Source: Microbacterium sp. T2.11-28 (GTDB lineage Bacteria; Actinomycetota; Actinomycetes; Actinomycetales; Microbacteriaceae). Taken from it: a stretch of 64,000 bases of DNA. How positions within the stretch are numbered: position 1 is the first letter of the stretch; the number at the start of each line of letters is the position of its first letter. The stretch spans positions 372,001 through 436,000 of the forward strand of contig NZ_CATNHF010000001.1 in NCBI RefSeq assembly GCF_950097975.1, written 5' to 3'. Position numbers and translations under genes: made by a program. Positions 15,201 to 64,000 of the stretch are shown piece after piece. The notes beneath the pieces were generated by a model. That model made no database searches. It was not told the DNA's origin and saw only the letters and a program-made list of their open reading frames with translations.

Positions 15201-17042
15201 ATGACGAGAACCCCTGCACACGTCCACGGTCTGGGCATGCGCATCACCGTGATCGTGCTCGGCGTGCTGCTGGCCGCCATGACGATCCTGTACTTCACCA
15301 CCATCGGGAAGATCGCCGACGGCGCGGTGCGCCTGGACGCCGGCGCCAGCCAGGCCGACGACGGCTCCCGTCAGGTCGCCGACGGCGCAGCGCGCCTGGC
15401 GGGCGGAGCGGGCGACCTGGCCGCGGGAGCGGAAGAGCTCGGCGCGGGCGCCGTCGCGGCGGCGGACGGCGCCTCCGATCTCAGCGCGGGCGCCGGGCGC
15501 GCGTCCACGGGGGCCCGAACCCTCGCTGACGGCGCCGCCACGCTCACCGAGGGCGCCGCATCGGCCGCCGCAGGTGCCGGCCGGCTGAGCGCCGGCGCAG
15601 GATCGGCGGCCGCCGGGGCCGACCGCCTCGCCGCGGGCGCCGCCTCCGCGGCATCCGGCGCGGTGCGGGTGCGCAGCGGCGCGGCCGACATCGCCGCGGG
15701 CGCGGGCAAGGTGTCCGACGGCGCCTCGGCCGCGGCCGCGGGCGCCGCCCGCGTCAGCGGTGGCGCGACCCAGCTCGCGGCGGGAGCGGGCACGCTCTCC
15801 GCCGGCGCGGTGCGCGCCGCCGCCGGGGCCGAGAGCCTCGCCGCCGGCGCCGCCGCTGCGGTCGCGGGAGCGGAGACGCTCGCGCAGAAGACCGCAGCGC
15901 TCGCCACCGGGGTGGTCGGAGCCGACACCTACGCCCGCGGTGTCTACAGCGGCGCGAGCGACTTCGCCGCCCTGCTGTCGAGCACGGTGACCGCCGACGT
16001 GCAGACCCTCGCGGGCTCCCAGACCGCGATCTCCGGCCTCGCCGACGGTGCGGCCGGCAACGCGCAGACCCTTGCGGACGCGCTGGCGGGACTCGCGCAG
16101 TCCGACCCCTCGCTCGAGCCGCTCGCACAGCTCGCCGCCGGCCTCGACCAGCAGGTCGATGCGCTGGGCGCACCCGCGAAGAGCGCTCCCGCGCTCGCTC
16201 ACGGACTCATGCAGGCCTCCGGCGGTGCCGCACAGGTCAAGGCGGGCGTGAGCGCGCTCATCAACGGCGACTCCTCCCGCGGATGGCCCGGGACCGTCGC
16301 TCTGGCCGACGCGGACCGCGGCGCTCCCGCACTCGCACAGGGAGCCGCAAACCTGGCCGAGGGCGTGTCCGCGCTGAGCACCGGCGCACGCGCGCTCTCC
16401 GACGGCACGAAGGAGCTCTCGGGCGGAGCGGCGGCGCTCGCCACCGGGACGACCACCCTCGCCGACGGCGCCGGCGACCTCGCAAGCGGGACCCGCAGCC
16501 TCGCGGGCGGCGCGGGCGCGCTCGCGGACGGCAGCGATACGCTCGCCGGCGGCGCCGCCTCGCTGGCGGACGGCACCCGCACCCTCTCCGCGGGCGCCGG
16601 CAGCCTGGCCTCGGGCACGCGCACGCTGGCCGAAGGCGCGACCTCGCTGAGTGCGGGAACCTCCGCCCTGAGCGCGGGGGCGACGCGTCTCTCGACGGGC
16701 GCAATGGAACTGGCAGACGGCACGGTCGCCCTGTCGGAGGGTGCGTCGTCCCTCGCCGACGGCGTCTCCCGCCTCTCCTCCGGCGCGGCCGCCGTGGCCG
16801 ACGGATCGACCCAGCTGGCAGACGGCTCGGGTGAGCTCGCGACAGGCAGCGCCTCCCTCGCCGACGGCAACGGGCAGATCGCCGCGGGCACCGGGGAGCT
16901 CGCCTCGGCGACCACCGGCGCTGCACCGACGCTGATGCCCTGGCTCCTCGGCGTCCTCCTGGCGGCGCTCATCGCCGCCGGTTTCTGGATCGGTCACCGG
17001 ATCGCGCACCGCGGTCGGGTCGCCGCGCTCGCGACGGCCTGA
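15201..17042 (+). CDS. membrane protein with two long glycine-heptad arrays (YhgE/Pip-like stalk)
   Basis: The 613-residue protein has a membrane segment at about residues 14-36 and another at 579-597, ending in a basic tail. Between them lie two arrays of a 7-residue repeat, roughly G-A-x-x-L-x-x. The first covers about residues 41-236 and the second about 381-573, joined by a non-repetitive domain. Such G-A-x-x-L heptads occur in the outer region of YhgE/Pip and type VII secretion-type membrane proteins, but the multi-helix transporter domain of those proteins is absent. ATG 15201 is preferred over ATG 15189 because GGAG lies 6 bases before it. Function is unknown; a periplasmic or cell-wall stalk is inferred. 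Confidence 0.8.
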   Translation: MTRTPAHVHGLGMRITVIVLGVLLAAMTILYFTTIGKIADGAVRLDAGASQADDGSRQVADGAARLAGGAGDLAAGAEELGAGAVAAADGASDLSAGAGRASTGARTLADGAATLTEGAASAAAGAGRLSAGAGSAAAGADRLAAGAASAASGAVRVRSGAADIAAGAGKVSDGASAAAAGAARVSGGATQLAAGAGTLSAGAVRAAAGAESLAAGAAAAVAGAETLAQKTAALATGVVGADTYARGVYSGASDFAALLSSTVTADVQTLAGSQTAISGLADGAAGNAQTLADALAGLAQSDPSLEPLAQLAAGLDQQVDALGAPAKSAPALAHGLMQASGGAAQVKAGVSALINGDSSRGWPGTVALADADRGAPALAQGAANLAEGVSALSTGARALSDGTKELSGGAAALATGTTTLADGAGDLASGTRSLAGGAGALADGSDTLAGGAASLADGTRTLSAGAGSLASGTRTLAEGATSLSAGTSALSAGATRLSTGAMELADGTVALSEGASSLADGVSRLSSGAAAVADGSTQLADGSGELATGSASLADGNGQIAAGTGELASATTGAAPTLMPWLLGVLLAALIAAGFWIGHRIAHRGRVAALATA

Positions 17043-61399: not shown

Positions 61400-61852
61400 T
61401 CAGCCGAGCGCGGTGCGCGTCGTGGCGGTCGCATCGATGGTGACGCCGTCGGGCACGAAGAGGCTCAACACCGGCGGGCGCCATCGCAGCCTCACCGTCA
61501 CGCGCGCGGAGGTGCCGTCCGGCGCGGACGCCGAGACGAGCTCCACTCCCCCGAACTCGTTGAGCAGTGCGGCGGCCTGACGTCGCACCTCCGCGTCGGT
61601 CAGCCGAGCGGCGGCGGTGCCGTCTACCACTTCGACCTCGAATCCGTCCGCTCCCGCCAGCGCCGCCGCATCGGCCGCGGCGTCTGCGCGCTTGTGCGCG
61701 AGATAGAGGCTTGTGGCGTCGGCGCAGACGAGGATGAGCGCCAGCGCGAGGACCGCGAAGCCGATGGTGAGAAGCATCGCCGTGCCGCTGTCGTCGGTGG
61801 CCCCCGCCGACCTCGGCTCCGCCGGTCTCGACTGCGCGGACGGGACGTTCAC
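61400..61852 (-). CDS. TadG-like pilus-assembly protein
   Basis: The 150-residue protein has a hydrophobic N-terminal segment (about 25-47) after a short basic/Pro-rich head, then A-H-K-R-A-D-A-A-A-D-A-A-A-L-A-G-A. This is the helix typical of Tad pilus minor proteins (helicase/secretion neighbourhood TadE-like group). GTG 61852 overlaps the upstream TadE stop (GTGA); ATG 61864 would add four residues. It ends the tad run. Confidence 0.78.
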   Translation of the reverse strand: MNVPSAQSRPAEPRSAGATDDSGTAMLLTIGFAVLALALILVCADATSLYLAHKRADAAADAAALAGADGFEVEVVDGTAAARLTDAEVRRQAAALLNEFGGVELVSASAPDGTSARVTVRLRWRPPVLSLFVPDGVTIDATATTRTALG

Positions 61853-62298
61853 TGCCCGCCCCATCCGCGTGACACCCGCTGCACTCCGGTGGCCTCCACG
61901 GTCACCCTCGCGCGATCCTCGAGGTCGAGGACGGCGGGCACGAGCGGGAGCGGGACGTCGACCGTCACCGTCACGCGGATGAGAGCGCCCGCCGCAGGAC
62001 ACGGCGTCACGGGTTCACAGCGCACATCCATGTCGACCGACTCCGCCTCCCAGCCGTTCTGGGTGATGAGGCTCCCGAGGATGTCGTCGATGCGTCCCTC
62101 TGCCTCCGCATCGTCGTTCGCCGTCGCGATGGCGCGCGCCAAATGCCGTGACGCGCTGTCAGCCGCCATCGCCCCGCTCTGGATCTGTCCGAGGGCAATC
62201 ACCAGGTAGACGAGCGGGACCAGGAGCACCAGCCCGACGAGGAGGAACTCGATGGCTGCGGATCCGTCTTCGTCACTCCAGACTCTCGAGCGGTGCAC
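61849..62298 (-). CDS. TadE-family pseudopilin
   Basis: The 149-residue protein begins V-H-R-S-R-V-W-S-D-E-D-G-S-A-A-I-E-F-L-L-V, the classic TadE N-terminus with G-S-A-A-I-E-F before the membrane helix. GTG 62298 has GGAGG 9 bases before it. Two Cys (R-C-E-P and P-C-P) in the outer domain may form a disulfide. TadE proteins are minor components of Flp/Tad adhesive pili. It overlaps the previous tad gene by 26 bases. Confidence 0.88.
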   Translation of the reverse strand: MHRSRVWSDEDGSAAIEFLLVGLVLLVPLVYLVIALGQIQSGAMAADSASRHLARAIATANDDAEAEGRIDDILGSLITQNGWEAESVDMDVRCEPVTPCPAAGALIRVTVTVDVPLPLVPAVLDLEDRARVTVEATGVQRVSRGWGGQ

Positions 62299-62662
62299 GT
62301 GCCGTCACCTCCCATCCCTCGGGTATCCCGAAGAGTCCGATGATCGGAAGGCGGGTGGTGACGCGGACCTCCACGACAGCGGTGCCCCCTCGGCCCACCA
62401 GGCGTGCCGTCGCAGAGTCGACGAATCCGTCGCCGACGGCACGCTCGAGGATCGCGCGTGCACGTGCGGCTCCTTCGGCGGTCTGGACGTCGGCCAGCGC
62501 GGCGAAGTACGCGCCCTCGACCGCGGCATCCTGCGTGAGGTTTCGCAGATAGACCGCCACCGCGAGCTGAAGCACACCCAGCGTCAGCGCTGTGAGCACG
62601 ATGCTCACGAGCAGGAACTCGACAGCGCTCGAACCGCGGTCGTCTCTCAGCAGACCGCGCAC
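62273..62662 (-). CDS. second TadE-family pseudopilin
   Basis: The 129-residue protein has the same N-terminal pattern (L-L-R-D-D-R-G-S-S-A-V-E-F-L-L-V) and one membrane helix, then a short outer domain. The start is GTG at 62662. It lies between the Flp-like remnant and the other TadE gene. Confidence 0.88.
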   Translation of the reverse strand: MRGLLRDDRGSSAVEFLLVSIVLTALTLGVLQLAVAVYLRNLTQDAAVEGAYFAALADVQTAEGAARARAILERAVGDGFVDSATARLVGRGGTAVVEVRVTTRLPIIGLFGIPEGWEVTARAPLESLE

Positions 62663-62669
62663 CGGTGGT

Positions 62670-62792
62670 TCAGAACCCCGACACGCGACTGATCGCCTGC
62701 TCGAACAGCTGCGCGAGCGCCGGTCCCGCCAGAGCCCAGATCGCGACGACCAGCCCCGCCGTCATGAGCGTCACGAGCACCCAGCTCCGCAT
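62670..62792 (-). pseudogene. Flp/DUF4244-like pilin remnant, 5' end replaced
   Basis: The 40-codon frame M-R-S-W-V-L-V-T-L-M-T-A-G through I-S-R-V-S-G-F looks like the hydrophobic C-terminal half of a DUF4244/Flp-like small pilin. That family should begin with an acidic/Gly segment and A-x-Y-A before the helix, which is missing. Only 12 bases separate its ATG from the oppositely oriented integrase ATG. The simplest reading is that an integration event cut off the 5' end. It could still be expressed if the junction supplies a promoter. Confidence 0.6.
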
Positions 62793-62804
62793 AGACTGAC
62801 ACCT
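62793..62804. other. probable attachment junction (attL) of the integrative element
   Basis: Here the minus-strand tad cluster ends and the plus-strand integrase begins. Codon use changes at the same place toward A/T-ending codons. Serine integrases commonly lie right beside their attachment site. The exact core dinucleotide cannot be fixed without the right end. TAGACT at 62791-62796 could be a -10 box for a leaderless integrase transcript. Confidence 0.5.
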
Positions 62805-64000
62805 ATGACACGGAAGCTCGTAGATCTCTACCTCAGGCTCAGCGTTGACCGTGAGGGGAAAGACTCTCTGGAGCGACAGGAAGCCGACCTTCGAGCATGG
62901 GCGAAGCGCGAGAAGCTCACCGTGCGGAAGGTCTGGAAGGACGCGGGCAAGTCGGGCTTCAAGGCCGACGTCCACCGACAGAACTTCGAGTCAGCCGTTC
63001 ACGCCGTCAGTACCGGCGAGGTCGGCACGCTGGCCGTCTGGAAGCTCGACCGGCTCTCCCGTCGCGGCGCTGGCCAGGTGGGTCTACTGCTCGATCAGGT
63101 GGAAGCCGCCGGATCGCGCATCGTCTTCCTGAAGGACAATCTCGATAGCCGCGAGTCCTCAAACCGAATGCTCATCATCATGGTCTCGGAGCAAGCCCGC
63201 GCCGAGTCCGCGAACACCAAGCTGAGGGTGCGCGAGAAGATCGCCGCCGACGCGATCAGGGGCGTCCCCAAGGGTGGAACACGCCCCTTCGGATGGGAGC
63301 CGGGCGGCATCACGCTTCGACCCTCTGAGGCCGATCTAGTGCGCGTGGCCGTGGCCGACTATCTCGGCGGTCGGCGCTCCCTGCTGAGGATCGCGAAGGA
63401 CTGGAACGCGGCGGGCGTGCAGACAGACGGGATGAAGCGCGAGCGCGTCGGGCGTGACGGCGTGAAGCGCCCCGCCCGTGGCATCTGGACGGCGACGACG
63501 GTTCGTCAGCTACTGCTTCGTGAGCGCAACGCGGGGCTACTAGTGCACGACGGCGCGGTGATGCCCAAGAGCAAGATCAAGCCCATCATCACGACGGAAG
63601 AGCATGAGGCGCTGAAGGGTCGCGTCAAGGCCGGAACGCCCCTCTCTGAGCGCGCTGTGACCTTGCTTGGCGGCATCATTCGGTGCGAGTGCGGAGCACC
63701 GATGCACGGCACGATGAGCTACAGCCAGCGGGCCAAGGAGCGGGGCAACGTCCCGGCGGGCAAGCGCTACACATACACGCATTACAAGTGCTCTCAGGCG
63801 CTCTATGACAAGTCGCGTCGGCACGCATCCATCGTGCAGAAGATCGTGGATGACCTCATCATCGCGATGCTGTGGGCGGACCTGTACAGCGGCAAGCTCG
63901 ACACGCCCGGCGACGACGTGACGGCGGCGCTCGCGGACGTCAGCGCGCGGCTGAGGGAGAACTCCGAGGGCATCGACCACATCGCGGGAGTGCTGAACGA
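62805..64000 (+). CDS. large serine recombinase (phage-type integrase), partial
   Basis: The frame is open from ATG 62805 to the window edge, giving 398 residues without the C-terminus. The N-terminal resolvase domain has the nucleophile Ser13 in Y-L-R-L-S-V-D, then V-W-K-L-D-R-L-S-R-R-G and a recombinase domain. A zinc-ribbon with C-E-C (294-296) and a further Cys near 329 follows. A coiled-coil region is beginning at the edge. This is the layout of phiC31-like integrases, which insert phages or conjugative elements at a specific site. Codon use is less GC-extreme than the host genes, a sign of transfer. Confidence 0.93.
   Translation, partial: MTRKLVDLYLRLSVDREGKDSLERQEADLRAWAKREKLTVRKVWKDAGKSGFKADVHRQNFESAVHAVSTGEVGTLAVWKLDRLSRRGAGQVGLLLDQVEAAGSRIVFLKDNLDSRESSNRMLIIMVSEQARAESANTKLRVREKIAADAIRGVPKGGTRPFGWEPGGITLRPSEADLVRVAVADYLGGRRSLLRIAKDWNAAGVQTDGMKRERVGRDGVKRPARGIWTATTVRQLLLRERNAGLLVHDGAVMPKSKIKPIITTEEHEALKGRVKAGTPLSERAVTLLGGIIRCECGAPMHGTMSYSQRAKERGNVPAGKRYTYTHYKCSQALYDKSRRHASIVQKIVDDLIIAMLWADLYSGKLDTPGDDVTAALADVSARLRENSEGIDHIAGVLN

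Follow-up and report, generated by a model that had tools for sequence, protein, structure and literature searches.

The right-hand end of the window, the whole 64,000-nucleotide stretch of Microbacterium sp. T2.11-28 analysed here, falls inside an integrative element that its own large serine integrase has placed in the Flp pilin gene of a tad locus. We read this element as one of the selfish elements that disable the competence of their hosts, here by way of the Tad pilus: its insertion splits flp, the uptake pilus would thereby be lost, and the element would gain from the loss. We give this reading a probability of roughly 0.7. A wider proposal, in which transformation in Microbacterium runs on two Tad loci together with comEC, comM and dprA, and unrelated elements have repeatedly evolved to break this machine while switching between sequence-unrelated genes, seems to us probable as well, with somewhat less assurance.

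The window comprises bases 372,001-436,000 of a 1.0-Mb contig in a 3.4-Mb genome (G000:C1:372001-436000), so that its end is not a contig edge, and it was extended to the right (extended stretch L002, in which L002:6780 is position 62780 of the window). The original prediction had the integrase starting 12 bases from a truncated Flp-like pilin, and this is the arrangement found: the integrase ATG is at 62805 and that of the opposite-strand fragment at 62792-62790, from which the C-terminal pilin piece can be read by adding three element-derived residues to a sequence that begins at the conserved W of GDVPGW. That this was an element lodged within the tad locus, with the rest of the pilin, a matching att site and the missing upstream tad genes on its far side, was borne out by the extension, which reached the absent N-terminal 28 residues and, after them, tadC, tadB and cpaF, all on the minus strand; the tad genes that flank the element on both sides are open frames (Table 1). 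A 6-bp core, CCCAGC (GCTGGG on the gene strand), is common to both junctions, its two copies lying 9,426 bp apart, and joining the flanks at this core yields a single 64-residue pilin when GTG is taken as the start (MKQLDVSQKCRNAWGRLRDDERGDVPGWVLVTLMTAGLVVAIWALAGPALAQLFEQAISRVSGF). No exact word longer than 10 bp is common to the two end regions, and a wider search returned no long end repeat. A tRNA was ruled out as the target, there being none in L002. By eye, the start codon of the integrase lies within one arm of an apparent attP inverted repeat (TGTCATATGTG / CACCTATGACA; L002:6790-6815 and 16180-16195).

Table 1. Features at the two junctions of the element (positions are those of the window unless prefixed).
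Feature	Position	Strand	Basis and remarks
tadG-like gene	61400..61858	-	PF13400 Tad, E 1.6e-7; 5' end uncertain, ORF call reaches 62002
tadE-like minor pilin	61849..62298	-	PF07811 TadE, E 2.4e-4, slightly below curated cut-off
tadE-like minor pilin	62273..62662	-	PF07811 TadE, E 2e-8
Flp pilin, C-terminal piece (WVLVTLMTAG...RVSGF)	62670..62783	-	37 residues and stop; residues 28-64 of the joined pilin
attL core CCCAGC	62780..62785		
Large serine integrase, 508 aa	62805..64000, continues to L002:8331	+	PF00239, E 9.7e-26; PF07508, E 1.2e-8; PF13408, E 3.2e-5
attR core CCCAGC	L002:16206-16211		Second copy, outside the window
Flp pilin, N-terminal 28 residues	L002:16207-16290 (G000:C1:444207-444290)	-	9.4 kb from the C-terminal piece, before tadC

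The integrase matches the Resolvase and Recombinase families above their cut-offs and the zinc ribbon (PF13408) slightly below it (24.6 against 25.3 bits), and as a protein of about 500 aa at the end of an element it fits the profile of a large serine integrase. It is followed by two small ORFs, an Eco57I-like DNA methyltransferase, a restriction endonuclease of the XamI family (PF09572, E 1e-46), a small serine resolvase and further small ORFs without a family above cut-off, after which the N-terminal part of the pilin is reached. The XamI-family type II restriction-modification pair, to the right of the window (L002:9243-11765), is likely to be stabilising or defence cargo; no relative of either gene was found among the loci searched. 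Phage structural genes, proposed as something to look for, were searched with Pfam and PHROGs, and no structural family exceeded its cut-off in the ORFs of the element, so that a phage origin was rejected; there is one weak match resembling a small terminase (E 7e-4 in PHROGs, 3e-3 in Pfam). Among the 8 of 486 matches listed for the integrase, those to phages show 26% identity over 94% of the length or about 38% over 60%. The predicted change of strand and codon use at the junction stood in its first part, while the change in codon use is weak, with an integrase GC3 of 0.825 inside the range of the four tad genes measured (0.77-0.86); overall GC is 66.5% in the element and 71.4% in the L002 flanks. 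A scan of named genomes by alignment to the integrase returned three loci, all of them in Microbacterium, and in one, M. gorillae, a large serine recombinase (LSR) adjoins the 3' part of cpaF.

Insertions of this kind recur throughout the genus. In a survey set of 295 Microbacterium genomes, one per species, a match to the flp pilin was present in 254, mostly as one strong match; flp went unmatched in 41 genomes and tadC in 32, some of these genomes being incomplete, from which we take the tad locus to be dispensable. A split was called where the query (for flp, the 64-aa pilin) yielded two separate pieces. Splits on one contig were found for flp in 17 genomes, by about 7 to 51 kb (37 of the 295 re-searched in full, picked by weak or double matches or by a relative of the integrase), for cpaF in 21, by 6 to 104 kb (31 re-searched), and for tadC in 19, by 7.7 to 15.5 kb (36 re-searched). 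Together, at least 48 of the 295 genomes carry a split of 6 kb or more in one of the three genes, and nine carry two; these counts are lower bounds, since the full search was confined to chosen genomes and splits across contigs were not counted. Excluded were G251 and G256 (cpaF pieces with no insert between them), G132, G081, G165, G026 and G261 (cpaF on different contigs or in one piece), G143 and G090 (flp pieces on different contigs), G135 and G229 (N-terminal flp piece not found), G127 and G019 (insert of about 1 kb or less) and G289 (broken cpaF); G173, with tadC on different contigs, counts for cpaF only, as does G035, in which only the C-terminal flp piece was found. In G207 an additional 30 kb lies between flp and cpaF.

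The break points are several in flp, around GDVPGW|VLV, VLVT|LMTAG and MTAG|LVV, where they sit at conserved codons (GDVPGWVLVTLMTAG), and four or five in cpaF, near residues 148, 205-226, 274 (the Walker A region), 360 and perhaps 320; tadC has essentially one. An LSR lies beside the junction in all 17 flp splits, in 15 of the 21 cpaF splits and in 11 of the 19 tadC splits. For tadC, G262 has a partial LSR ORF, G237 and G214 have no LSR within about 1 kb of the one junction inspected in each, and G272, G291, G002, G187 and G144 lay outside the junction check. The cpaF splits that lack an LSR include two with a PF00589 tyrosine recombinase at the junction (G253, G257), two with similar ORFs (G154, G035), one with two PF00589 proteins (G022) and one in which no recombinase was identified (G287). 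In G257 the element (L116:2142-9132), in cpaF near residue 218, carries, besides the tyrosine recombinase with a 649-aa partner, an E1-E2 (P-type) ATPase gene; similar ORFs occur in G253, G154 and G035. The flp elements of G154 (terminase, capsid, tape measure) and G262 (portal, endolysin) are prophages. Elements unrelated to each other, among them the restriction-modification island of G000, prophages and the P-type ATPase element, occupy different sites in the tad locus. Short inserts were also seen, of about 1.1 kb between the flp pieces of G127 (L065:3054-4192) and about 0.4 kb between the tadC pieces of G019 (G019:C7:71319-71746); these are perhaps decayed elements that can no longer be excised.

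This diversity bears on the suggestion, made in the original prediction, that excision may restore the pili and so act as a genetic switch; in such a scheme the element would leave in response to some signal, mending flp and turning the pilus on. Gene-splitting elements that excise or act reversibly are familiar from the comK prophage of Listeria and the skin element in sigK, and the anatomy at the present locus would permit the same, with tad genes that remain open frames around the element and flanks that join into a pilin. Across the flp loci, a stop-free join fitting the consensus was obtained in 18 of 18, partly by construction as the join was chosen for best fit, and in 11 of these 18 loci the two sides share a run of 3-8 nt where they were joined. 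Restoration of the frame is, however, expected of any site-specific insertion, and a switch under host control sits poorly with many unrelated elements at different sites, with nine genomes in which two splits mean that a single excision would not mend the locus, and with the short leftover inserts of two loci. As in the gin element of gerE, described as a gene-intervening excision element (PMC5595907), and in skin, a coding gene is split and removal would restore it; unlike in those systems as described, there is no sign of programmed excision here. A host-controlled switch is thus possible from the anatomy but unsupported, and we regard it as very improbable.

The disabling of competence also draws support from a sample of 50 single-contig genomes that were taken in the order of their labels, irrespective of tad, and searched with PF07508. 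The search gave 48 matches in 27 of the 50 genomes, and 22 of these 48 LSRs adjoin a broken gene that serves to take up or process DNA: 12 at the present tad locus, five in the pilin of the second tad locus, two in comM, two in dprA and one in comEC, the last four groups coming from the 36 LSRs outside this tad locus, whose flanks were read. The five adjoin half of a DUF4244 pilin, and in three of them a CpaF paralogue is adjacent to that pilin. The comM breaks are an N-terminal piece (PF13541) next to the LSR in G093 and, in G161, 29 C-terminal residues, 65% identical, 32 bp from the LSR start. For dprA, a C-terminal piece (PF02481) lies beside the LSR in G113 and an N-terminal piece reads directly into it in G067; in G166, comEC lacks its N-terminal third and adjoins the LSR. 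G161 had been a candidate dprA case and was rejected as such, its dprA being whole and its comM broken; beside the LSR in comM a DUF2469 gene and dprA face each other (L140:600-2320), which suggests an inversion at the element. In G149 (L149:1446-3605) the LSR frame stays open past the end of its domain, over the second-pilin piece, which is in another frame, and into the TadE-like sequence that follows. Random insertion would place about 0.2 of 48 events in the 15 kb of target, against 22 observed, on a calculation that treats the LSRs as independent, which they are not; being related, they yield a p-value that should not be taken at face value. The proportion of 22 in 48 is compared here with random placement alone. 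None of the remaining 26 LSRs was assigned to a competence gene; as targets were identified for a minority of them, the share of competence genes could rise.

How the recombinases came to these genes was followed on a tree that included 44 of these 48 LSRs (three short fragments and the G007 locus near 3628898, with no suitable ORF, were left out), on which the tad label covers 17 rows and the comM, dprA and comEC cases are labelled as other. The tad label requires eight changes (gains or losses), at least six of them forced by the starred branches, compared with a mean of 13.6 for shuffled labels. From the tree topology, the tad loci would most simply have been reached by LSRs several times. 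Changes of target between near relatives are also evident: the cpaF LSR of G071 and the flp LSR of G154 are sisters (99), as are the tadC LSR of G177 and the second-pilin LSR of G149 (100), and, in a separate tree with a bias towards tad LSRs, the window's own integrase belongs to a clade that contains flp and cpaF insertions together with that of G067 in dprA. We know of no sequence similarity among the tad and com target genes hit by sister LSRs.

An alternative account would hold that the tad and com genes are simply safe harbours, conserved at the DNA level, present in single copy and dispensable, so that they offer a site in most hosts at low cost, with the loss of competence a by-product that brings the element no benefit. 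The conserved codons at which flp and cpaF are entered agree with it, as does the absence of the locus from some genomes. An LSR of G157 at 1,419 kb (L126:3820-4325) is a near relative of the recombinases at cpaF residue 274, yet it sits in the gene of an ABC-type ATPase, at the Walker A codons; recognition is thus of the DNA, conserved DNA can bring an integrase to an unrelated gene, and conserved DNA alone explains part of the target pattern. It would account less readily for 22 of 48 LSRs falling in one functional set of sequence-unrelated genes spread over several chromosomal regions, or for the same cpaF being hit by tyrosine-recombinase elements. We consider the safe harbour unlikely as the explanation of the whole.

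What flp, cpaF, tadC, the second pilin, comM, dprA and comEC have in common is one known role, natural transformation. An alternative focused on the cell surface, in which breaking the Tad pilus shields the lysogen or host from pilus-dependent phages by superinfection exclusion, would draw on the fact that Tad pili serve as receptors for some phages in other bacteria, and on most of the insertions found being in pilus genes, though those were the genes searched for. It leaves aside comM, dprA and comEC, which are hit as well and are not surface pili, and we give it very little credence.

Other parts of the machinery are intact. The genome of the window has a second tad locus, a paralogue of the first, in which both the DUF4244 pilin (G000:C1:962581-962736; L169) and the tad ATPase are whole; a search for a second Flp_Fap (PF04964) pilin gave just two weak matches, below the cut-off. 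The original prediction had named an intact flp-tad cluster elsewhere, with the present locus ending naturally, as evidence against itself: such a paralogous cluster exists, and the locus does not end naturally. By weak half-length matches, the second pilin appears to be split in about 25 of the 295 genomes, five of which were confirmed beside an LSR. Both comEC and comEA are intact in G000, and comEC was found in 94 of 98 relatives. The nearest experimental parallel is Micrococcus luteus, which likewise has two tad clusters with comEA and comEC, a combination its authors call frequent in actinobacteria; transformation was lost on deletion of any gene of either cluster except one tadB, the authors allowing for polar effects, and the tad deletions are described as having no adherence phenotype (Angelov et al., 2015; PMC4322843). 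The evidence for a role of tad in transformation comes, in that species, from deletion mutants. A mixed-culture Hi-C study reports Microbacterium transformed by an added plasmid under high kanamycin, and its account of that event does not mention tad in this connection (PMC10257627). In the open-licence literature we found no test of a competence gene in the genus.

By homology with M. luteus, a distant relative, flp would be needed for transformation in Microbacterium. The gene is broken in G000, as had been predicted, and no Flp pilus would then be made from this locus; if, as in M. luteus, natural transformation takes in DNA by means of this pilus, the host would become non-transformable and could not swap the element for incoming DNA that is free of it, to the benefit of the element. 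Such a gain would exist for any element in any competence gene, which would explain why different integrase families settled on flp, cpaF, tadC, the second pilin, comEC, comM and dprA.

The case of G000 fits a known, competence-disrupting kind of element. In the argument of Croucher et al. (2016; PMC4774983), elements are cleared by transformation and so profit from a host whose competence is lost; the disrupted genes they name are comYC, comK, comFA, comM and comEC. The parallel with the elements they describe extends to the recurrent disruption of transformation genes within their coding sequences, the major pilin gene among them (comYC there), and to comM and comEC as targets; recurrence across species and across different competence genes is seen here too (48 of 295 genomes; second pilin, comM, dprA, comEC). 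The difference lies in the machine, here an actinobacterial Tad/Flp system with insertions in flp, cpaF, tadC and a second pilin; neither "tad" nor "Actinobacteria" occurs as a whole word in the main text of that paper. Among the LSR targets catalogued by Durrant et al. (2022; PMC10083194), DNA competence genes are reported as strongly enriched, with 12.4% of predicted site-specific integrases targeting one magnesium-chelatase-like gene, and the main text contains neither "pilus" nor "Microbacterium". The present analysis extends that catalogue to the Tad pilus as a set of targets, to genes with several sites each, and to shifts of target from one tad gene to another. The magnesium-chelatase-like gene is one that we take to be comM. 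No report of Tad/Flp loci as targets of mobile elements in an actinobacterial genus was found in the open-licence literature, among the matches listed, and it appears to be new that the Tad/Flp pilus is a main target in such a genus, with several sites entered across three genes of one locus and the pilin of a second locus hit as well.

These observations join two lines of work that have been separate: the sabotage of competence by mobile elements, known from comYC, comK and comM, and the uptake of DNA through a Tad/Flp system in an actinobacterium. They also yield numerous serine integrases whose attB sites can be inferred and fall in just a few genes. If our reading is right, the Tad loci of a large and little-studied genus are competence loci under attack, and the target sites of integrases could be used to predict the DNA-uptake genes of a lineage; should the wider proposal hold, the insertion sites of these elements would be a natural map of the competence machinery in Microbacterium.
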